A DNA stretch of 53,143 nucleotides from Deltaproteobacteria bacterium. GTDB taxonomy: Bacteria; Desulfobacterota; DSM-4660; Desulfatiglandales; Desulfatiglandaceae. The stretch's first letter is position 1. Each line of letters starts with the position of its first letter. A program made the position numbers and the translations under genes. The DNA lies in contig JAFDDR010000008.1 in the NCBI GenBank assembly GCA_019310785.1, positions 1 to 53,143 of the forward strand, read 5' to 3'. Below the pieces are notes generated by a model. That model saw only the letters and a program-made list of their open reading frames with translations, was not told the origin of the DNA and ran no database searches. Positions 1-11,542 of this stretch are shown here, piece after piece.

Positions 1-1005
1 CCGAGGTTCGTGGATGAAGTCAAGTGCATCGGGTGCAGGCAGTGCGAATATAACTGCCCCGTATACGTTTCGGATGAAGAACAGGGTGGATTCAATGCCC
101 GCAAGGCAATCTATGTCCCCTTTTCAACTGCTATTCCTCAGATTGCACTGATGGACATGGAAAACTGTACCCTGTGCGGCAAGTGCGCCAAGGTCTGCCC
201 CACGGACGCAGTTGACTATTTTCAGGAACCAAAAGATTTTGTAATTGAGGCAAAGACGGCAATCCTTTCCACCGGGTTCGAGTTGACGCCCCTTGAGAAC
301 AAGCAGCAATACGGAGAAGGGAATATTCCAAACGTGATCAGCGCCCTCCAGATGGAAAGGCTCCTGGCCCCGCACGGCCCGTACAACCGTGTTCTGAGAC
401 CATCAGACGGTATGGAGCCCGATTCCGTCGCCTACATCCAGTGCGCGGGTTCAAGAGACAAGAGCATGGGGGTTCCTTATTGCTCGCGCGTTTGCTGCAT
501 GTATGCGATCAAGCAGGCCATGCTCCTCTCGGGTGCCCTGCCGTTGGCTGATATCGCCATTTACTATATGGATATAAGGGCATTTGGAAAGGGCTACGAA
601 CAGTTCTTCCAGAATTCAATGGCCATGGGCATCGAGTTCATAAAAGGTAAGGTTGCCACTATAGATGCGGGAGAAAACGGGACCGTTAAGCTCCACTATG
701 AGGCACAGGAAGACGGCGGAGGGGTAAACATCGCAGAGCATGACCTGGTGGTCTTGTCCTTGGGCATGGTTGCAGGCTGGAATCCCGAAGGTGTCTGTTC
801 GATATCCACAGGCTCTGATGCCTTCATCGAAACGATCAAGCCCAAAATTGCGCCCACCTTAACCGATATGGACGGCGTCTTCGTGGCCGGAGTGGCGGCC
901 GGGCCAAAGGATATTGTGGATACTATCGTAGAGGCAGGCGCGGCGGCCATGGAGGCTTCAAAGTACATGGTTTCTATGGATCGTACCAGCAAGGCCGCGG
1001 CGTGA
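1..1005 (+). CDS. HdrA-like flavin/iron-sulfur protein, C-terminal part (runs off left edge)
   Basis: The reading frame is open to base 1, so the N-terminal part with the main FAD-binding fold lies outside the window. Visible in order are a [4Fe-4S] motif (CIGCRQCEYNCP), a second one (CTLCGKCAKVCP), the HdrA-type segment YCSRVCCMYAIKQAM, and a C-terminal FAD-contact region (GVFVAGVAAGPKDIVDTIVEAG). This architecture is that of HdrA/QmoA-family subunits, which pass electrons between soluble or membrane partners in heterodisulfide-reductase-like complexes. A second, full-length HdrA follows on the same strand after about 100 bp, so two HdrA paralogues are paired, as QmoA and QmoB are, though no QmoC follows. 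The assignment to the HdrA family is firm. Whether it is QmoA proper cannot be decided without the N-terminus. The protein is cytoplasmic, with no membrane segment in the visible part. Confidence 0.85.
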   Translation, partial: PRFVDEVKCIGCRQCEYNCPVYVSDEEQGGFNARKAIYVPFSTAIPQIALMDMENCTLCGKCAKVCPTDAVDYFQEPKDFVIEAKTAILSTGFELTPLENKQQYGEGNIPNVISALQMERLLAPHGPYNRVLRPSDGMEPDSVAYIQCAGSRDKSMGVPYCSRVCCMYAIKQAMLLSGALPLADIAIYYMDIRAFGKGYEQFFQNSMAMGIEFIKGKVATIDAGENGTVKLHYEAQEDGGGVNIAEHDLVVLSLGMVAGWNPEGVCSISTGSDAFIETIKPKIAPTLTDMDGVFVAGVAAGPKDIVDTIVEAGAAAMEASKYMVSMDRTSKAAA

Positions 1006-1108
1006 TACCGACTAAAAGTTTGAGAAATCTTTACGGGTTCAGGGTACAGATGTAACTCTGAACGGTGAACTTTGAACCCGTGAACGCTTATAATTGGGAG
1101 ATTCAGTA

Positions 1109-3043
1109 ATGGCGGATGAAGACAAAGCAAAAGAAACAACATCGGGGCAGAAGGTCGGCGTATATGTTTGCCATTGCGGTGGCAACATCAGCGACCATGT
1201 GGACGTGAAAAAGGTCTGCGAGAACATGAAACAAGTTCCGGGTGTCGTTTCGGTGCGAGACAACATGTTCATGTGCTCCGATCCCGGACAGGAAATGATC
1301 ATGGAGGATCTCAAAAACGGGACGATTGACCGGGTTGTAGTTGCATCCTGTGCGCCCAGCCTTCACGAAACTACCTTTCGAAACGCCATTTCCAGGGCAG
1401 GCGGAAACCCTTACGTCTATGAACATGCCAACATCCGGGAGCAGGTAAGCTGGGTCCATCATGGAGATGGCGCCACTAAGAAAGCGACCCGCTTAGTTGC
1501 CGCGGCAGCCGCAAAGGCAAAGGAACTCCAGCCCCTCGAACCCTTCAGAGTAGACGCTAAAAAGCATGCCACCGTGATCGGAGGCGGCATCGCAGGCTTA
1601 AGGGCGGCAAAAGACCTGGCGGACAGGGGGATCGAAGTGGTCCTTATTGAGAAATCCCCCTTCTTGGGAGGCTGGACGGCAAAATGGGACCATGTGTTCC
1701 CCACGGGAGATAATGTCTCGGACCTTATTATGGAGCTTGCCCAACAGGTCCTGAACAACCCGGAGATTGCAGTATATAACTGTGCCCGGGTGACATCCTT
1801 TGAAGGTTTTGTCGGCAACTTCAAGCTCGGTTTCAAGACACTATCACCTGAGAAGGGTGAATATGAAGATGAAATCAAAAAGATGAGCGAGTCAGGCAAA
1901 AAACATGGTGAGTTCATTCCCTTTGTGGGGGTCTCTCCTTCTTCCGGGATTCCCGAAGCCACTGAGGAACATACGGTACAGACCGGCGCAATTATCCTGG
2001 CAACCGGTTTCAAACCCTATACGCCTCGCACGGGGGAATATGGATATGGTGAATTCCAGGAAGTGATCACGCTGCCCGAACTGATACGGATCATAGCCGA
2101 AAACCGGGAAAATGGGCCTGGTGATACACTAAAAGTGAACGGAAGGGATATCAAGAGCATTGCCATGATCCACTGCGTTGGCAGCAGGCAGATCCCGGGC
2201 ATCCACGAGGAAGACGAAGACAAGCCACTTAATCAGTATTGTTCCAGGACGTGCTGCAGCGCTACTTTACACGCCGCCAATATGATACGAGAGACGCATC
2301 CCAAAACTCATATCTATGATTTATACCGGGATATCAGGACCTATGGCAGAGGACATGAAGAACTCTATGAAGACGCCTCCAAAAACAAGGTGGTTTTTTT
2401 CCGTTTTGAGGCCCAGGATTCGCCTGTTGTAGCTAAAAACAGCGGCCCCGGGGACCACCCACTCCTGGTTACAGTTAAAGATACCCTGACCTTTGGTGAG
2501 GAAATTCAGGTCCCTGCAGACCTGGTGGTTCTCGCAGTGGGCATGGAGCCGAATAATGTTTCAGACTTAGTGGAAATGATGAAGATATCCGAGGGCGTAG
2601 ACAAATTTCTCTTAGAGGTCCACCCAAAACTGCGGCCAGTGGAAGTGGCAGTGGCAGGCATCCTGCTTGCCGGCACCTGCCAGGCCCCTTTTGATATTGG
2701 CGAGGCATGCGCCGCCGCATCAGGCGCAGCCGTCAAGACTTCCGCTCTGCTGGGTCGTGGATATGTAGAACTTGACCCCTTTGTGGCGGAAGTGGATCTC
2801 GATAAGTGCAAAGGCACCGGGGCCTGTATGGAAGTCTGTCTTAACAAGGGCGCCTTGACCCTGATTGAAATGGAGGTCAATGGTGAAACAGTGAAACGGG
2901 CAGAGGTCAACCCGGCCATGTGTTCGGGTTGCGGCGCCTGCACCGCTGTTTGCCCGGAAAAGGCCATCAATGTCAAAGGATGGACACTTAAACAATACGA
3001 AGACATGGTGGATATGATAGTCGCTGACCGGATTGCGGCATAA
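1109..3043 (+). CDS. hdrA: HdrA, heterodisulfide-reductase-type FAD/iron-sulfur subunit
   Basis: About 644 residues starting at the ATG at 1109. An upstream TTG in the same frame has no better ribosome site. The N-terminus carries the HdrA Cys region (VYVCHCGG). A Rossmann FAD motif (VIGGGIAGLRAAKDLADRG) begins near residue 155, and the HdrA segment YCSRTCCSATLHAAN follows in the middle. The C-terminus has a ferredoxin-like tail whose last cluster motif is canonical (CSGCGACTAVCP). The preceding motif is not: it reads C-K-G-T-G-A-C-x3-C, with Thr where the second Cys is expected. In HdrABC complexes HdrA carries the FAD that bifurcates or confurcates electrons between ferredoxin and a disulfide-type acceptor. 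Genes for a small winged-helix protein, HdrC and HdrB follow on the same strand, suggesting one complex. Its physiological acceptor is not known from the sequence. Confidence 0.9.
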   Translation: MADEDKAKETTSGQKVGVYVCHCGGNISDHVDVKKVCENMKQVPGVVSVRDNMFMCSDPGQEMIMEDLKNGTIDRVVVASCAPSLHETTFRNAISRAGGNPYVYEHANIREQVSWVHHGDGATKKATRLVAAAAAKAKELQPLEPFRVDAKKHATVIGGGIAGLRAAKDLADRGIEVVLIEKSPFLGGWTAKWDHVFPTGDNVSDLIMELAQQVLNNPEIAVYNCARVTSFEGFVGNFKLGFKTLSPEKGEYEDEIKKMSESGKKHGEFIPFVGVSPSSGIPEATEEHTVQTGAIILATGFKPYTPRTGEYGYGEFQEVITLPELIRIIAENRENGPGDTLKVNGRDIKSIAMIHCVGSRQIPGIHEEDEDKPLNQYCSRTCCSATLHAANMIRETHPKTHIYDLYRDIRTYGRGHEELYEDASKNKVVFFRFEAQDSPVVAKNSGPGDHPLLVTVKDTLTFGEEIQVPADLVVLAVGMEPNNVSDLVEMMKISEGVDKFLLEVHPKLRPVEVAVAGILLAGTCQAPFDIGEACAAASGAAVKTSALLGRGYVELDPFVAEVDLDKCKGTGACMEVCLNKGALTLIEMEVNGETVKRAEVNPAMCSGCGACTAVCPEKAINVKGWTLKQYEDMVDMIVADRIAA

Positions 3044-3234: not shown

Positions 3235-3567
3235 ATGGGCCAGACAGATGATGATAAAAAAGGAAAGAAAGAGGCCATGAAAAAGCTGCGCAATGAACGA
3301 AAACAGTTCATTAAAGCGGCTGCAGCCAGGATGAAAGAGCAGAAAAAAGTCATAAAGGCAATAAAGGAACAGATAAAGGACAACCCCGGAACCGTACCTG
3401 AAATTGCCGAAGGAACGGGGATTCAGAGCTCCGAGGTCCTCTGGTATTTGGCTACCCTGAAGAAGTTTGGGCAGATAATGGAAGGTGAAAAGGACGGCGC
3501 TTACTTCCGGTATGAACTGGTTGAAACCGAACAGGAGGAAGCGGCGGAGACGGAGGAGGGAATATGA
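3235..3567 (+). CDS. Small winged-helix protein of the Hdr cluster
   Basis: 110 residues with a highly charged, Lys-rich N-terminal half (about residues 8-55, likely helical) and a winged-helix-like C-terminal half: TVPEIAEGTGIQSSEVLWYL as recognition helices, then the wing region up to GAYFRYELVE. The tail is acidic. It starts after a clear ribosome site and its stop overlaps the HdrC start by 4 bp (ATGA), so it is translationally coupled to HdrC. It may be a regulator of the cluster or a structural adaptor; the sequence alone cannot separate these. The tight coupling argues for a product needed in proportion to the complex. The fold call is moderately sure; no function is claimed. Confidence 0.75.
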   Translation: MGQTDDDKKGKKEAMKKLRNERKQFIKAAAARMKEQKKVIKAIKEQIKDNPGTVPEIAEGTGIQSSEVLWYLATLKKFGQIMEGEKDGAYFRYELVETEQEEAAETEEGI

Positions 3568-3866
3568 CTCTCGTAAACCCTGAATTTGCTGAGGAGCTCG
3601 AAAATTTCGGCATTGACAAGACCCTGGACTGTTTCAATTGCGGGACGTGCGCTGCAATATGCCCGCTTATTTATGAGCATTTTCCAAGAAAAATGATCCG
3701 ATATGCCCAGATTGGCGCAAAGGACCGGATCCTCGAGAATTATGAGGACCTGTGGCGTTGTTTGCACTGTGGACTTTGTATTCAAACGTGTCCGAGGGAG
3801 GCCGATCCCGGGGATCTAATCTTAGGGCTTAGGCGGTTCGTGGTAGACAATTGGAGGAGGGCGTAA
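3564..3866 (+). CDS. hdrC: HdrC, two-[4Fe-4S] electron-transfer subunit
   Basis: 100 residues, of usual length for soluble HdrC. Two complete ferredoxin motifs are visible: CFNCGTCAAICP (residues 23-34) and CLHCGLCIQTCP in the C-terminal half. HdrC relays electrons from the HdrA flavin to the CCG-domain catalytic subunit. Its ATG overlaps the stop of the winged-helix gene, and its own stop is one base from the next start with GGAGG in between, so it is the centre of a tightly coupled wHTH-hdrC-hdrB set. There is no membrane segment, so the complex is predicted to be cytoplasmic. Family assignment is confident. Confidence 0.92.
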   Translation: MTLVNPEFAEELENFGIDKTLDCFNCGTCAAICPLIYEHFPRKMIRYAQIGAKDRILENYEDLWRCLHCGLCIQTCPREADPGDLILGLRRFVVDNWRRA

Positions 3867-3867
3867 G

Positions 3868-4794
3868 ATGTATAACCCGAGGTATATTATTGATGTACTT
3901 GCTGACAATATCAGGAAGACGCGGAACCCGTTTGGTGCGTCAAATGGTACAGTCAACAAATGGTGGAAAGATACACCCATGAGCACCGAAGGAGACGCCA
4001 TGCTCTATACAGGGCTTATGTACCAGTTGGCGCCTTACATTGCAAAAACTACAAAGCAGATTGAACGGTTTGAGGACACCTTTTTTGCGAATTACGTGTG
4101 GCTCAACAAATACGCGCCGAAGTTTCTTGTGAAACTGGCATTTGCATTCATGGCGTCCAAAAAGGACAAACAGCCCTTCAACGATATCCTGAACAGTATC
4201 GTCAAGATCCTTGTAAAGTCGGACGTAGATTTTTTTTACAAGCCGAAACTCGACTATTACAGCGGTATATTGCTGTATGACCTGGGGGATAACGAGGGCT
4301 TCATCGAGCATGCAAAGTTCGTTGCCGGAAAGCTCAAGGAACAGGGTATCAAAAAACTCATTACGGTTGATCCTCATACCACTTATGCCATGAAAGTTCT
4401 CTACCCGAAGTATATCGGCGAGAGCTTTGAAGTGAAAACATATTTTGAACTGATCAATTTCAAGGCACAGGATGAAGGCAGGCAGGTCACCCTTCATGAT
4501 CCCTGCTTTTACGGGAGATACCTGGAGCTGTCGGATGTACCGAGAAAGGTCCTCGATAACCTTGGAATTGAGAACATAAATGTAAGAAATTCCGGTAAGT
4601 TTACCAGTTGTTGCGGTGGCCCTGCAGAATCTGTTTCACCTGCCCTCACCAAAGAGATCCTCAGCAAGAGATATGCGGACCTGAAAGAGACGGGCGCCCC
4701 CATAGTGGCATACTGCCCCATATGTCTTGGTAATCTCATAAAAGCCGGGGCTGACGTGGAGGACCTGTCAACACTCATTGCTCGTTATGCTTGA
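3868..4794 (+). CDS. hdrB: HdrB/HdrD-type CCG-domain subunit
   Basis: 308 residues with one complete cysteine-rich CCG domain in the C-terminal half: HDPC, then SCCGGPAES, then CPICLGNL, matching the C-xn-CCG-xn-C-x2-C pattern that binds the non-cubane [4Fe-4S] site of heterodisulfide reductases. The N-terminal half (GDAMLYTGLMYQLAPYI and following) resembles the first CCG domain of HdrD/GlpC-type proteins but lacks its cysteines, so only one active cluster site is expected rather than two. It is coupled directly behind hdrC. The likely role is disulfide, persulfide or related sulfur substrate reduction or oxidation. The substrate is unknown; the DsrE and rhodanese genes downstream point to sulfane sulfur rather than CoM-CoB. 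Confidence 0.85.
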   Translation: MYNPRYIIDVLADNIRKTRNPFGASNGTVNKWWKDTPMSTEGDAMLYTGLMYQLAPYIAKTTKQIERFEDTFFANYVWLNKYAPKFLVKLAFAFMASKKDKQPFNDILNSIVKILVKSDVDFFYKPKLDYYSGILLYDLGDNEGFIEHAKFVAGKLKEQGIKKLITVDPHTTYAMKVLYPKYIGESFEVKTYFELINFKAQDEGRQVTLHDPCFYGRYLELSDVPRKVLDNLGIENINVRNSGKFTSCCGGPAESVSPALTKEILSKRYADLKETGAPIVAYCPICLGNLIKAGADVEDLSTLIARYA

Positions 4795-5031: not shown

Positions 5032-5406
5032 ATGGCGGACACAGAAACGGAAAAAATAGTATACCTGTCAACAAACGGACCGGAAAACCCGGAGAAGGCA
5101 AGTCTTCCTTTTGTACTTGCCAACGCGGCCCTGGTGATGGATGTGGAAGCGCTGATAGTGCTCCAGGGGCCGTCCGTATTTCTGGCTAAGAAGGGGATAA
5201 TCGAGCATGTCCATGCGGCAGGATTTGCGCCCTTAAAGGAACTATTGGAGTCATTTCTTGAGCAGGGCGGCAAGCTGGCTGTGTGTGTGCCCTGCATCCA
5301 GGAGAGGAAAATCGACGAGACTGACCTGATTGAAAAGGCCGAGCCAATGGCGGGTGGCACCCTGACCCTGGAGCTTTTAAGCGCAAACGCAACACTGGTT
5401 TATTAG
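5032..5406 (+). CDS. DsrE-family sulfur-carrier-like protein
   Basis: 124 residues with an AAGGAG ribosome site in front. The pattern YLSTNGPENPEKASLPFVLANAA, then an alternating hydrophobic core and LAVCVPCIQERKI, matches DsrE/DsrF-like proteins. Cys85 and Cys88 (VCVPC) sit where DsrE-type carriers hold the persulfide-binding cysteine. No signal peptide is seen, so it is cytoplasmic. Known DsrE-like proteins hand sulfane sulfur to DsrAB/DsrC or to the sulfur-oxidising Hdr-like pathway. Its position between an Hdr complex and a rhodanese suggests sulfur hand-over inside this locus, which is an inference. It is not DsrE of a DsrEFH set, since no DsrF or DsrH gene is present. Confidence 0.85.
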   Translation: MADTETEKIVYLSTNGPENPEKASLPFVLANAALVMDVEALIVLQGPSVFLAKKGIIEHVHAAGFAPLKELLESFLEQGGKLAVCVPCIQERKIDETDLIEKAEPMAGGTLTLELLSANATLVY

Positions 5407-5423: not shown

Positions 5424-5507
5424 GTGTTTGTGGTCTTTGCAGGAAGCGCTATGTTCATTTGGGGCTTGGCAAAGATGATGCCTAAATTCAAACCATTAAG
5501 GAGATGA
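5424..5507 (+). CDS. Possible 25-27 residue single-span membrane peptide
   Basis: A short frame ends 2 bp before the rhodanese start. It is preceded by a strong GGAGGAGGGG (5414-5423), and GTG codons at 5424 and 5430 are the plausible starts; an ATG at 5412 lies too close to a weaker site. The product would be one hydrophobic helix (VVFAGSAMFIWGLAKMM) with a basic tail (KFKPLRR), the look of a small membrane protein. The GGAGG could instead be chance, since the rhodanese has its own AAGGAG. Real expression is unproven. Confidence 0.3.
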   Translation: MFVVFAGSAMFIWGLAKMMPKFKPLRR

Positions 5508-5509
5508 CC

Positions 5510-6811
5510 ATGAAAAAGAAAAGGTGGTTCGCCCTGTTGAGCATCATGGTGGCAATAGGTTTTTGCCTGTCTTTCGTTCCAGTGGATCAGTCAGCGGCCG
5601 GAGATGTTTTTAAGGTAAAGGGGAAGGTCAAAGGGGTCTCCAACAGGGCAAAGACGATCTCTTTGTCTGTAAAGGGAAAGGGCGCAATGGTCTTCAAGTT
5701 CAATGACAAGACCAGGTTTATTAATGCAACGTCTGCCAGGGATATGAAAAAGGGCGAGGCAGCGGTCGTAAAATACAAGAGCGCAGGGCCTGACATGCTT
5801 GCGGTCTCCATCACCAAGGCGATTGCCAAGATGCCCGAGGGCGTGGGTGTAATAAAGACGCCGGAGGTTGCGGCCCTCGTAAAGAAGGGCCCCAAGGCGG
5901 GAAACTATTACCTCATTGATACAAGGCCGGCCAAGAGGTATAAGGCAGGGCACATCCCCACGGCCGTATCCGTTCCGCTGACGAAGCTCAAGAAAGAGGG
6001 GAAAGGGCTTCTCCCCGCAAAGGGGAAGACCCTGATCTTTTACTGCGGAGGCCCCACATGAGGCATGAGCCCGAAATCCGCCGGTCTGGCGAAGAAATGG
6101 GGCTATGAGGATGTAAGGGTCTACTCACAGGGCGCTCCGGGATGGAAAAAGGCGGGAAACTACCTGGTCTCAACAATAGATTTCGTAATGACCGGGAACA
6201 TCGTCCTGGTTGATCTCAGGAGCCACCAGGCCGTAAGTGCCGGGCATATTCCGAGGGCCGTGAACATCCCCCTGAAAGAGCTGTCCCGGGCAAAAGAGAA
6301 GTTCCCCTCTTCCAAGGTGGCGCCCATTGTATTTTACTCGGATAATATCGAAGATTCAAAGGAGGCCGTGAATCTCGCCCGGAAGTGGGGCTACAAAAAC
6401 AATATAGTGTTTCCCTTTGAAGGACCGAAAGAGTGTGTGGCAAAAGGGTATGACATCCGCACCGACGAGGTAGCTAAGGATATCCACTGGGTAAGAAAAA
6501 ATGGCCCCGGCGAGATAAATATGAAGGATTTTGACCTGGCCTTGAAAACGGACGCAATAAAGGTTATAGATGTAAGGGGCGTAGATGAATATGAAAGCGG
6601 GCATTTTCCGGGGGCCATAAATATTCCCCTTGATGCCCTCCCCCAAAGGCTGGACGAGATCCCCCAAGACAAGTTCATTGCCGTCCACTGTAAGACCGGC
6701 GTAAGGGGTGAGATGGCATACCTGCTCCTGAAAGAGAAGGGATATGCCGTGAAATACCTCAATGCCAGGTGCAAGTGCAAGCCGGACGGGACCTACTGGA
6801 TATGGGAATAG
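5510..6811 (+). CDS. Exported multi-rhodanese selenoprotein (in-frame TGA = Sec184)
   Basis: Reads as one 433-residue protein if the TGA at 6059-6061 is selenocysteine. The ATG at 5510 is chosen because AAGGAG sits 6 bp before it. Order: signal peptide (residues 1-30), a small beta-rich domain (about 34-105), rhodanese 1 (about 112-205) with active loop FYCGGPT-U-GMSPKSA (Cys179, Sec184), rhodanese 2 (about 215-315) with Ser277 in place of the catalytic Cys (IVFYSDN), and rhodanese 3 (about 325-433) with an intact loop CKTGVR at Cys394. The family usually has Cys at the TGA position (GGPTC), and the frame continues without shift through the conserved region. Rhodaneses move sulfane sulfur through a Cys persulfide; a C-x4-U pair suggests redox or persulfide chemistry in the periplasm. 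The alternative is a truncated pseudogene, but conservation downstream and the SECIS hairpin argue against it. Confidence 0.82.
6068..6104 (+). promoter_or_regulatory. Bacterial SECIS element after the Sec TGA
   Basis: Directly downstream of the TGA (6059-6061) the sequence folds into a two-part hairpin. The lower stem is AGCCC (6068-6072) with GGGCT (6100-6104), then an internal loop, and the upper stem is CGCC (6079-6082) with GGCG (6088-6091) closing the loop GGTCT (6083-6087). The apical loop begins 21 nt after the TGA, within the usual bacterial range, and starts with GG. The same GGUCU loop is found in the E. coli fdhF SECIS bound by SelB. It lies within the coding sequence. Confidence 0.75.
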
Positions 6812-6926: not shown

Positions 6927-7412
6927 ATGCACAGGACCATACTTCCAATTTTTATGGCCTTACTCCTGGCAACGGCGTTTATAGCCCCTCAGGCCGTTTC
7001 CGCCCGGGAGGCGGGGCAGGCATCGGTGGACAAGGCCCTTTGCAAAAAGATGACCCGCTTCGGCAAACAGGCCTATGACAGGGGAAAATACCTAACCGCA
7101 AAGGAGTTTTTTCGAAAAGCGGTTCAGGCGGATCCGGATTCCGTCCTTGCCTGGCGGTATTATGACCTTTCAGTAGTCTTCGCACTGGCCGGGAAGGTGG
7201 AACAGAACATGGGAAAGAGGACCGATATGCTGGCCCCTGGCGTTTCTGTGCGCAAAGGAGCCCCCCCGGGAACGCCTAAAGGACATATAGGCGTCCCACC
7301 GCCTTCCGAGTCAGGAGGACGCATCGATTCTCCACCGCCTTCTGAACCAAAGGGGCATAGTGGTCCGCCACCGAACACTGGATTTAAGATTGAGGAAGAT
7401 GAAGGCTGTTGA
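6927..7412 (+). CDS. Small exported TPR-like protein with Pro-rich repeat tail
   Basis: 161 residues, preceded by AAAGGAGATC. Residues 1-26 form a signal peptide ending AVSA. The middle (about 35-85) fits one to two TPR helices (GKQAYDRGKYLTAKEFFRKAVQADPDSVLAWRYY, broken up here only by its repeat logic of small and aromatic positions). The tail (about 110-150) has three imperfect Pro/Ser/Gly repeats of the type PKGHIGVPPPSES and then an acidic end with a terminal Cys. It sits between the exported rhodanese and the YeeE/YedE transporter on the same strand, so a periplasmic scaffold or partner of these is plausible. No enzymatic motif is visible. I do not recognise a named family for the whole protein. 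Confidence 0.7.
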   Translation: MHRTILPIFMALLLATAFIAPQAVSAREAGQASVDKALCKKMTRFGKQAYDRGKYLTAKEFFRKAVQADPDSVLAWRYYDLSVVFALAGKVEQNMGKRTDMLAPGVSVRKGAPPGTPKGHIGVPPPSESGGRIDSPPPSEPKGHSGPPPNTGFKIEEDEGC

Positions 7413-7447: not shown

Positions 7448-8638
7448 ATGAGTGAAAATAATGAAACAAGCGTGATGGGCGGCATCCTGAAGCGGGCTTA
7501 TTCGACCGTATTTTATGAAAACTGGCCCATATGGCTTGGGGGCATACTGATAGGCATCATGAGTGTTATCACCTTTGCCTGGGCCAGGCCGTTTGGCGTG
7601 GTAGGTGGATTGAGAAACTGGGCGGACTGGTTTTTCAATCTTATAGGGGTGTACAGCCATGCCCCGCTCTCACCGCTTATCTCCACAAATTCCATCCTGA
7701 CCCTCGGACTGCTCTGGGGGGCTTTTGGGGCCGCCCTCATGTCCAAGCAATTTGCCATTCGCATGGCCCCGGGCCGTGAACTGATAAAAGGGATCGTGGG
7801 CGGCTCTCTCCTGGGCATAGGTTCAGCAATGGCCGGGGGATGCAATGTGGGAGGCTTTTATATAGCCACGAGCGCCCTTTCATTTTCAGGGCTTGCCATG
7901 ATGGTGGGTCTCATTGTGGGTGCCTACTTAGGTCTTCGCTATCTGTACTGGGAAATGATGAACCTTCCCCATAAGCCCCCCAAAGCAGGGACCGGCAAAA
8001 AGGGACCTAATCTGCTTGTGACAGAACCATACATAGGCGCTGCCGTATTCCTGGCCGCCATTGTCGCTGCCTTGATTTACGTTTCAGAGGCATATGCACG
8101 GGTCGGAGGCCTGCTCCTTTGCGGGATAACTTTTGGCGTGATAATCCAGAGGACCCGTTTCTGTTTTGTAAGATGCTTCAGGGATCCCTTCATGACCGGA
8201 GAAGGGGACATGGTAAGGGCAGTGACCTACAGCATTATAATCAGCATCTTAGGTTTTGCCGCCCTTAAATGGACCGGGCTGAGAGGGGAAGAGGTTTATG
8301 TCACACAGACCTTCTGGTTCGGGAGCCTGGTGGGAGGCATCATCTTCGGGTTCGGCATGCTGATTGCCGGTGGCTGCGGGACCGGTTCCGTGTGGAGGGC
8401 CGGTGAGGGGCACATCAAACTCATGGTGGTTGTGGCCTGCTTTGCCCTGACCAACTCCTTGTTCAAGGCGCTGATCAAATCCTCAGAGGGCTTCAAGGCA
8501 TTGATAGGCAACAGGGTATTTCTGCCCGATTTTTTGACCTACAAATGGACCATAGTTATCCTGGTAGCAATTTTTGCCGCCTATGCCTTAATAGCTACCT
8601 GGAATGAAGAGACGGATAAGTTTACAGTTGAGATGTAA
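7448..8638 (+). CDS. YeeE/YedE-family sulfur (thiosulfate or selenium) transporter
   Basis: 396 residues, strongly hydrophobic with about nine to ten membrane segments in two homologous halves. The family's conserved Gly/Cys motifs are present: GGCNVGGFY in the first half, RTRFCFVRCFRD near the middle, and GGCGTGSVWR in the second half. TsuA (YeeE) imports thiosulfate through such a cysteine relay, and YedE homologues have been tied by comparative genomics to selenium use. It is the last gene of the locus and is followed by a strong terminator. Next to a Sec-containing rhodanese, either sulfane sulfur or selenium uptake is possible. The family is certain; the substrate is not. Confidence 0.9.
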   Translation: MSENNETSVMGGILKRAYSTVFYENWPIWLGGILIGIMSVITFAWARPFGVVGGLRNWADWFFNLIGVYSHAPLSPLISTNSILTLGLLWGAFGAALMSKQFAIRMAPGRELIKGIVGGSLLGIGSAMAGGCNVGGFYIATSALSFSGLAMMVGLIVGAYLGLRYLYWEMMNLPHKPPKAGTGKKGPNLLVTEPYIGAAVFLAAIVAALIYVSEAYARVGGLLLCGITFGVIIQRTRFCFVRCFRDPFMTGEGDMVRAVTYSIIISILGFAALKWTGLRGEEVYVTQTFWFGSLVGGIIFGFGMLIAGGCGTGSVWRAGEGHIKLMVVVACFALTNSLFKALIKSSEGFKALIGNRVFLPDFLTYKWTIVILVAIFAAYALIATWNEETDKFTVEM

Positions 8639-8693: not shown

Positions 8694-8841
8694 CTGACCC
8701 CTGTACCAGCCAGAGATTTCTCAACCGCTTAAATCCGGTATCGATCAATTCCGATAAGGAACTTCTTGACCACTGTGTTGAGATAGAACAATATAGAGCG
8801 TACAATCCTATAACACAAAAAAACAACGTGAGGTGCCAATT

Positions 8842-9789
8842 ATGAGCGATAATAACTCAATATCATCAGAGGGGCATGATCTGGTCATTATCGGAGCGGG
8901 TCCGGCCGGCCTGACCGCCGGGATCTATGCGGCCCGGGACAAACACGATGTGGTGCTGTTAGAAAAACTGAGTCCCGGTGGCCAGGTGCTCACCACGGAC
9001 TTTGTAGAAAATTATCCCGGCTTTCCCGAGGGGATCAGCGGGTTTGAACTCATGGACCACATAAAAAAACAGGCGGAACGGTTTGGTCTGACTATTGTCA
9101 GCCACGAGGTGCAGGGGGTTGATTTTACAGGCCCCGTAAAGCGCCTATCTCTTGATTCAGGGCCAATGAATGCTCGCTGTATAATTGTGGCCACAGGTGC
9201 TCAACCACGTAAAATAGGCATAGAAGGAGAAGCTCTGCTCACGGGGAAGGGCGTCTCATACTGTGGCACCTGTGATGGGCCTTTTTACAGGGAAGCGATC
9301 GTTGCAGTGATCGGTGGAGGTGATACCGCTGTACAAGAGGCTGTTTTTCTTACACGTTTTGCCAGTAAGGTCTATGTCATCCACCGGCGGGACGAATTAC
9401 GGGCCACCAAGATCATCCAGGAAAGGGCCTTTGCAAATGAAAAGGTCGAATTTATCTGGGATACGGTGCCCATCCGTATTGAAGGCGAAACCGGAGTGGA
9501 AAGGCTGCGCCTGCAAAACGTCAAGACCAGGGAAGAAAGCTCCCTAAAGGTGGAAGGGGTTTTTGTGTTGGTGGGGACCCGGCCGGTGACTGAATTCCTC
9601 AATAAGGCAGTTGCCCTGGATGAACAGGGTTTTATCAAGGTCAACCGCAGGCAGGAGACCAGTGTGCCCGGGATTTTTGCCGCCGGTGACGTGACCAGTG
9701 AAAACCCTCGTCAGATCGCCACCGCAGTCGGCGAAGGGACCTCGGCTGCTCTCTATGCGGAAAAATACCTCGAAGCCCAGGAGGGGTAA
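8842..9789 (+). CDS. trxB: Thioredoxin reductase
   Basis: 315 residues from the ATG at 8842; a GTG at 8833 overlaps the GAGG ribosome site and is rejected. The FAD motif GAGPAGLTAG is at residues 18-27. The redox pair is C141-G-T-C144 (YCGTCDGPFYR; the usual form is CATC). The NAD(P)H motif GGGDTAVQEA lies near residue 157, and the C-terminal FAD motif GIFAAGDVTSENPRQI is intact. Length is normal for the family. It reduces thioredoxin with NADPH or NADH in the cytoplasm, and two thioredoxin genes lie downstream in the window. It stands alone between a terminator and a convergent regulator gene. Confidence 0.95.
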   Translation: MSDNNSISSEGHDLVIIGAGPAGLTAGIYAARDKHDVVLLEKLSPGGQVLTTDFVENYPGFPEGISGFELMDHIKKQAERFGLTIVSHEVQGVDFTGPVKRLSLDSGPMNARCIIVATGAQPRKIGIEGEALLTGKGVSYCGTCDGPFYREAIVAVIGGGDTAVQEAVFLTRFASKVYVIHRRDELRATKIIQERAFANEKVEFIWDTVPIRIEGETGVERLRLQNVKTREESSLKVEGVFVLVGTRPVTEFLNKAVALDEQGFIKVNRRQETSVPGIFAAGDVTSENPRQIATAVGEGTSAALYAEKYLEAQEG

Positions 9790-10135: not shown

Positions 10136-11542
10136 TTAGGCCGGTCCTTTAAGCGGAATATCCCACTTCTTCATATATTTCCATATTGCCGTTCTGCTCA
10201 GTCCCACCCGTCTGCCCACCTCGGCCTTGTTCCAATCGCATTCATGCAGGATCTCAACCAGAATGTCACGGGAAAGTTTTTTTCCTGGAGAACGGCTGTT
10301 TTGGGCTGAAAGGGGCGCTTTCAGGGCAACGGGTCGATACTCGAATTGCCGTATTTCAACGGGCAGGTCAAAGATATCGATATCCTTGTCAGTACAAAGT
10401 ACAAAGGCATGTTCAATCGCATTTTCCAGCTCACGCACGTTTCCGGGCCAGGTGTAATCCATCAGGATCCTCATTGTAGACTGCGAAACGCCTTTAATCC
10501 GTTTGCCTGTTTTTACATTCAGGATATCAATGAAATGGCTTATCAGAATAGGAATATCTTCTTTCCTTGTTCGTAAGGGGGGTATATTGATCGGAAACAC
10601 CTTGAGCCGATAGTACAGGTCCTCACGGAAGTTACCGTTATTGACAAGGTCATACAGATCCTTGTTCGTCGCTGCAATAATTCTGATATCGATTTTACGC
10701 TTTTTAGATTCTCCGACCCGCTCGATTTCCCGTTCCTGCAGCACACGAAGAAGCTTAACCTGAATAAAAGGATTTATTTCACCGATCTCGTCTAAGAATA
10801 TGGTCCCGCCATCAGCTTCCTCAAAACGACCGGCCCGGTCACGAACCGCCCCGGTAAAAGCTCCTTTCACATGGCCGAATAATTCGCTCTCTAACAGCGA
10901 TTCTGAAAGTGCGTTGCAGCTCACAGTGACAAATGGCATATTGTATCGATCACTGTTGTAGTGAATAGCCCCGGCAACCAACTCTTTACCGGTGCCGCTT
11001 TCACCCTGTAGAAGCACGGTTGCTTCACTTGCAGCCGCCGCTTTTATTGCCGAAAATACCTGCTGCATGGCATGGCTCTTACCTATGATGTTGTCAAACT
11101 TGTGGATTTCACCTAACCGGCGATTGGCCTCTTCTGCCTTACGCCGGGCCTTTTTCAGTTCTGTCAGGTCAGTAACGGTCTCGACAACACCCCTTACCAG
11201 GTTATCTTCATCCCTTACCAGTCTTGCATTTTTTACAACCGGAATATCATGGCCCTCTTTGTGACGTAAAAAGCACTCCCCGGAATCAACAGAGCCACGT
11301 GTGTAAATCCCGCATTCGTTAATGCCTGTGGGACAGCTTCTGGAAAAGCAGCGGGTGAAATTCAGCATCATGCAGCTTTTACCTATAGCCTCTTCGGCGG
11401 TGTAACCGGTGATATGTTCCATTGATATGTTCCATGATGTTATTTTTCCTTTGTCATCAAGGGTAAAAACACCATCAGCCATTGATTCCAACAGTAAATT
11501 CGCAAAGTAGGGATCAAATACGTTCCTGTTCTTCTCTTGCAT
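10136..11542 (-). CDS. PAS-domain sigma-54-dependent transcription activator
   Basis: 468 residues. The N-terminal PAS domain (about 14-130) includes a Cys-rich loop ([20 protein letters not shown]), a possible metal or redox sensing site. The AAA+ domain (about 150-380) has Walker A GESGTGKE, the sigma-54 contact loop GAFTGA, Walker [12 protein letters not shown] and the arginine-finger segment. The C-terminus is a Fis-type helix-turn-helix ([20 protein letters not shown]). There is no receiver domain, so it senses its signal directly. It is transcribed convergently toward trxB and away from the thioredoxin gene at 12034. A second activator of the same build is at 25636-27024, and rpoN is in the window. 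The target genes are unknown. Confidence 0.93.

Follow-up and report, generated by a model that had tools for sequence, protein, structure and literature searches.

Predictions of selenocysteine (Sec)-containing rhodaneses date from 2005 (PMC1088965 and the bSECISearch work that PMC13188914 cites). A 2026 review lists five rhodanese-like selenoprotein forms, the first of which, represented by WP_010941598.1 and marked by a UxxS motif, was predicted in 2005 by bSECISearch (PMC13188914, PMC9312934). Rhodanese-related selenoproteins of COG2897 and COG0607 have also been reported from the Sargasso Sea and GOS metagenomes (PMC1088965, PMC2398784). TsoB (NF045694), a rhodanese/DsbD fusion-like selenoprotein, carries two Sec residues in a UxxxxU redox pair. 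Periplasmic sulfide dehydrogenase-rhodaneses such as Wolinella Sud (1qxn) have a single rhodanese domain and no Sec. Sud has its place beside polysulfide reductase.

We analyzed a 53,143-nucleotide stretch of a genome from the family Desulfatiglandaceae (contig JAFDDR010000008.1, here called the window) and found that its forward strand holds a gene of this kind at 5510 to 6811, which very probably encodes one exported selenoprotein, with Sec inserted at UGA 6059. The protein resembles form 1 in having a rhodanese fold and a single Sec in a UxxS motif, into which its own UGMS fits. Paralogues from the Geobacteraceae group also link form 1 to the window family, since they carry UPFS or UGMS and the same hairpin. 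WP_010941598.1 is presumably a Geobacter protein, judging from its accession series. The window family is therefore probably rhodanese-like form 1, the comparison being one of motif and description only; the reviews give no triple-domain architecture, heme variants, or operon for that form. The Sargasso Sea and GOS proteins likewise have Sec in a rhodanese fold, but by their descriptions they stand apart as other groups (COG2897/COG0607) with a UxxG motif or none.

No model in NCBIfam release 20 accepts the 433-amino-acid protein. The nearest selenoprotein model there is TsoB NF045694, which aligns with residues 112 to 216 at 63.8 bits against a cutoff of 805. The two share a rhodanese domain and a redox pair spaced by four residues, UxxxxU in TsoB and CxxxxU here, but the window protein has one Sec in place of two and no DsbD part, and we rejected its assignment to TsoB on the score, the Sec count, and the missing DsbD part. 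Closer kin are the Cys-type triple rhodaneses of Geobacteraceae (L158, L183, and L185), encoded beside Psr-like molybdoenzymes, which belong to the same family and have the same architecture but carry Cys at the Sec site and lie in another operon. The rhodanese domain of 1qxn is matched with an E value of 8e-7, and the position of Sud beside polysulfide reductase is analogous to that of the Psr-linked homologues. An earlier note on this DNA had called the gene an unannotated Sec rhodanese, which is apt with respect to a standard gene caller but not with respect to the literature, where Sec rhodaneses had already been predicted (PMC13188914, PMC9312934, PMC1088965). A Sec rhodanese as such is not new; what is added here is the breadth of the family, its repeated Sec/Cys switching, its heme c and lipoprotein variants, and its Hdr-DsrE-YedE or polysulfide-reductase-like operons.

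The frame runs from ATG 5510 to a TAG stop at 6809 to 6811 and, with TGA read through, encodes 433 amino acids; its sole internal stop is the TGA at 6059 to 6061, codon 184. Among the in-frame TGAs seen in the window, it alone connects the halves of a single conserved protein. It lies in the loop FYCGGPT-U-GMSPKSA, so that Sec184 falls five residues past Cys179 (6044 to 6046), an invariant alignment column at the catalytic-Cys position of rhodanese domain 1. Under translation table 11, the frame breaks into two open reading frames, 5504 to 6061 and 6065 to 6811. This bears out the claim in the earlier note that a standard caller would yield two broken genes, and its description of a single frame, running from a signal peptide through three rhodanese domains and split by the TGA, agrees with the read-through product, in which Pfam matches three PF00581 stretches.

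The two open reading frames would fit a true stop, in a pseudogene or through a sequencing error. We looked at the same codon in relatives. A search with the single protein as the query of a contig scan found no relatives, and a plasmid search returned nothing beyond distant generic rhodaneses; an alignment (A1) scanned against 84,980 species genomes then gave 115 relatives, of which 80 loci were kept, from Desulfobacterota, Nitrospirota, Thermodesulfobacteria, and a few Proteobacteria. The 89 distinct homologues, which come from Desulfobacterota, Nitrospirota, and other groups, had TGA at codon 184 in 70 cases and a Cys codon in 19, and no other residue was specified there. Since this very codon is always TGA or Cys in the homologues, the TGA here is not due to chance. 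In the cases read at the codon level, the TGA lay within a C-x-G-x-x-U-x-x-[ST] loop. The TGA recurs at this codon in dozens of independent genomes, some of them finished as single contigs, and the invariant rhodanese residues are kept in the downstream half, so a true stop is exceedingly improbable. Frameshift, pseudogene, sequencing error, and true stop are effectively excluded as causes of the TGA. The alignment proposed in the earlier note thus found Cys at residue 184 in 19 of the 89 distinct homologues, all TGA-free members having Cys there and none another residue, and the recurrence of TGA at one codon in relatives disposes of the sequencing error that the note had named as a way to refute it.

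The family was found in 38 of 395 sampled genomes of the phylum (about a tenth) and in many Nitrospirota. A strong match was present in 30 of 197 related genomes, where nearly all full-length matches had one internal TGA. On the tree of homologues, at least eight Sec/Cys changes fell on well-supported branches. In the family to which the Geobacteraceae genome of L158 belongs, 20 further loci had Cys without exception, and some genomes of that family had an extra TGA-containing lipoprotein paralogue. Four lipoprotein-type Sec paralogues from Geobacteraceae-group genomes (L186 to L189) had a UPFS or UGMS motif together with the same GCCGGUCUGGC hairpin. A shorter relative (L049:1489-2586, genome G072) had two in-frame TGAs, one in each rhodanese domain, with a similar stem-forming stretch after each.

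A candidate bacterial SECIS hairpin follows the TGA. Its core in the window, at 6079 to 6091, is CGCC-GGUCU-GGCG, a 4-bp stem (6079 to 6082 with 6088 to 6091) closing an apical loop at 6083 to 6087. Taken by itself it is unremarkable: its folding did not stand out from that of dinucleotide shuffles (z = −0.34 and −0.64), and 11.6% of synonymous shuffles formed the same 4-bp stem. The evidence for the hairpin accordingly comes from the family and not from the single sequence. All 70 TGA members kept a hairpin at a fixed distance after the TGA, typically C(C/T)GCC-loop-GGC(G/A)G. As a control, we made 2,000 synonymous recodings from each gene's own codons. The TGA members formed 4.80 of the 5 core pairs, versus 3.43 ± 0.09 (standard deviation) in the control, and all five were formed in 56 of the 70, against a control mean of 6.7 and a maximum of 16. 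Pair 21-33 by itself occurred as C-G, T-A, T-G, and G-C. The Cys members stayed near the control level (3.05 core pairs versus 2.81 ± 0.15 [standard deviation]), and the apical-loop G (loop position 26), which every one of the 70 TGA members has, was found in 6 of 19 Cys members. As judged from these alignments, selection acts on the hairpin of the TGA members over and above codon choice, which is a further point against a true stop.

The in-frame ATG at 6065, six bases and two codons on from the TGA, raises the alternative that translation stops at the TGA and restarts there, giving two proteins and a split rhodanese. In other TGA members, however, this codon is mostly CTC, CTG, TTG, or another codon (UVLS, URLS, and UALT loops) while the TGA and hairpin are kept, and the Cys homologues are encoded in a single frame. 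We regard a split rhodanese as very improbable, and Sec insertion at 6059 to 6061, predicted from these comparisons, as almost certain.

The genome itself (G000; 4.02 Mb in 341 contigs, 93.5% complete, 5.8% contaminated) contains the machinery that Sec insertion calls for. Profile matches identified SelA (623 bits), SelB (317 bits) with a tRNA-Sec gene just upstream, and SelD (370 bits), whose catalytic loop, AGSG-U-ASKLPPGDLDRAL, has a TGA in frame. The search for selA, selB, selC, and selD suggested in the earlier note thus turned up selA, selB, tRNA-Sec, and a Sec-encoding selD. The predicted product thereby shows the features by which bacterial selenoproteins are recognized: a TGA aligned with Cys, a SECIS hairpin, and selA, selB, selC, and selD in the genome. 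An organism-wide reassignment of TGA, to tryptophan or another residue, was also considered, and we found no point in its support. The homologues have Cys and never Trp, all four sel genes are present, and the other long open reading frames of the window are normal under table 11; the probability of this reading is close to negligible. Two different tRNA-Sec genes occur in G000, at C277:1782-1871 (L010) and C240:23975-24068 (L009); both have anticodon TCA and only one adjoins selB, which points to a second selC gene or to contamination (5.8%). A dsrA match (574 bits) fits a sulfate reducer.

SelB scored over its cutoff in 37 of the 42 carrier genomes examined; above-cutoff SelB was missing from two Cys carriers (G197 and G210) and three draft-bin Sec carriers (G041, G050, and G194). 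Co-occurrence with SelB was rejected as a discriminator between Sec and Cys members, because SelB is present in most of the Cys carriers as well.

The 433-amino-acid protein has three stretches that match Pfam Rhodanese (PF00581; E = 2e-46; 157 bits against a curated cutoff of 22.2). An AlphaFold2 model built with 24 homologues had a mean pLDDT of 89.9, with a helix at residues 4 to 19, a strand-rich domain at 33 to 103, and three rhodanese domains, and its Foldseek matches were rhodaneses (1yt8, E = 3e-14). A signal peptide read by eye (MKKKRW, a hydrophobic core, and QSAAG) occupies about residues 1 to 30 (5510 to 5599), where pLDDT is low at 18 to 30 and relatives have c-heme motifs or lipoprotein signals. 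The strand-rich domain (5606 to 5818) is preceded closely in many relatives by a CxxCH heme c motif. Rhodanese domain 1 (residues 117 to 215; 5858 to 6154), delimited by Pfam, the alignment, and the model, bears the C179/U184 pair; domain 2 (residues 223 to 313; 6176 to 6448) lacks a catalytic Cys and has VFYSDN instead; and domain 3 (residues 338 to 420; 6521 to 6769) has an intact HCKTGVR loop with Cys394 at 6689 to 6691. In domain 3, C394, T396, G397, and R399 are invariant in the alignment, and CxTGxR is present in 88 of 89 rows. By the predicted fold, the product is very probably a three-domain periplasmic rhodanese, its location following from the signal peptide and from the CxxCH motifs and lipoprotein-type signals of relatives, which point to the periplasm or its membranes.

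CxxCH occurs near the start in 47 of the 70 Sec members. Counted over the tree, 53 of 89 rows (L102, L106 to L109, and others) are heme-rhodanese fusions, with the CxxCH motif N-terminal to the first rhodanese domain. Near its C terminus the window protein has CKC (Cys421/Cys423; 6770 to 6778). Among their final 30 residues, 28 of the 70 Sec members have a CxC or CC, as do 4 of the 19 Cys members. This pair may be a reducing arm for the Cys/Sec loop.

The following neighbors of the rhodanese gene in the window lie on the forward strand. Upstream are two HdrA-like genes (10 to 3043, comprising 10 to 1005, cut by the contig end, and 1094 to 3043), a ferredoxin-like gene (3564 to 3866) with an HdrB/CCG-domain gene (3868 to 4794), and, directly before the rhodanese gene, a DsrE-family gene (5032 to 5406; PF02635, E = 1.3e-16). 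Downstream are a small exported protein that is a conserved neighbor in this clade (6927 to 7412; cluster 1, 8 loci), a YeeE/YedE-family transporter of the thiosulfate/selenium type (7448 to 8638; PF04143, E = 2.9e-47), and a thioredoxin-disulfide reductase (8833 to 9789; TIGR01292, 386.9 bits against a cutoff of 343.45). The transporter lies below all NCBIfam cutoffs, scoring 130.6 bits against selen_YedE_FdhT (cutoff, 350). The order shared within the window's clade is HdrA, HdrA, (small open reading frame), ferredoxin, HdrB, DsrE, rhodanese, small exported protein, and YedE. An apparently split HdrA in L101 proved not to be a simple in-frame TGA case. YTD gene clusters bring together yedE, tusA, dsrE, and two conserved hypothetical genes. 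Two of these, dsrE and yedE, lie near the rhodanese gene, and no neighbor matched TusA in searches that were not TusA specific.

Neighbors vary between clades. In Geobacteraceae and Proteobacteria, Cys members are encoded together with a molybdopterin oxidoreductase, an NrfD/PsrC protein, and a 4Fe-4S protein, in an operon that resembles thiosulfate/polysulfide reductase; in the Geobacteraceae loci L183, L185, L158, and L076, the rhodanese gene is directly upstream of this operon, and the L158 oxidoreductase carries a TAT signal. A PAS/sigma-54 activator lay less than 6 kb away in 25 of 80 loci (L081 to L160), mostly upstream and on the opposite strand, and a strict −24/−12 site occurred between 300 nt upstream and 100 nt downstream of the frame start in 13 of the 80, versus 0.7% of background blocks. 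The window has a regulator at 10136 to 11542 on the reverse strand; a strict sigma-54 promoter was sought in the window and not found.

We infer with moderate confidence that the likeliest function is periplasmic sulfane-sulfur transfer or reduction via the Cys/Sec pair. The C-x4-U pair singled out in the earlier note, next to a rhodanese Cys, is there as Cys179/Sec184; the sulfur or selenium transfer chemistry it proposed is suggested and not observed. Our proposals for the substrate, the electron donor, and the sulfur acceptor come from the gene neighborhood, which suggests thiosulfate or polysulfide as the substrate. SelB and tRNA-Sec almost certainly insert Sec at UGA 6059 under the direction of the hairpin at 6079 to 6091. 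In the proposed mechanism, domain 1, domain 3, or both would accept sulfane sulfur from thiosulfate or polysulfide to form a persulfide, which Sec184 would resolve, so that sulfur is released or handed on and a Cys-S-Se-Sec bond is left. An electron donor (a periplasmic heme c, the C-terminal Cys pair, or a partner) would then re-reduce this bond, and the reducing partner may differ by clade among heme, the C-terminal Cys pair, and a membrane enzyme. In the window's clade, the YedE transporter and the DsrE/Hdr module in the cytoplasm of a sulfate reducer would receive the sulfur. This sequence of persulfide formation on the rhodanese Cys, resolution by Sec as a selenenylsulfide, and reduction has, in our estimate, a little under an even chance of being correct.

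A selenoprotein for redox defense or for handling metalloids such as selenite and tellurite, rather than for sulfane-sulfur metabolism, is unlikely, with some points in its favor. Many selenoproteins are thiol oxidoreductases (PMC13188914), TrxB is encoded nearby, and in a Geobacter cluster the rhodanese-like gene extH lies next to extI, without which selenite and tellurite reduction is impaired (PMC5877670). The genes alongside, however, encode Hdr, DsrE, and YedE or Psr-like proteins, and ExtH is only a candidate orthologue. More tentatively, and with some doubt, the family may represent an undescribed selenium-dependent periplasmic sulfane-sulfur (polysulfide/persulfide) reductase or transferase supplying a YedE-DsrE-Hdr route of sulfate reducers; its heme c variants would exchange electrons directly, and it would have swapped Sec and Cys at least eight times.

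Annotation that does not model Sec cuts the gene in half and so hides a conserved family of periplasmic sulfur enzymes. The repeated exchange of Sec and Cys provides natural pairs for learning what selenium adds to rhodanese chemistry, and the operons of the Sec rhodanese family point to an uncharacterized step in anaerobic sulfur metabolism.
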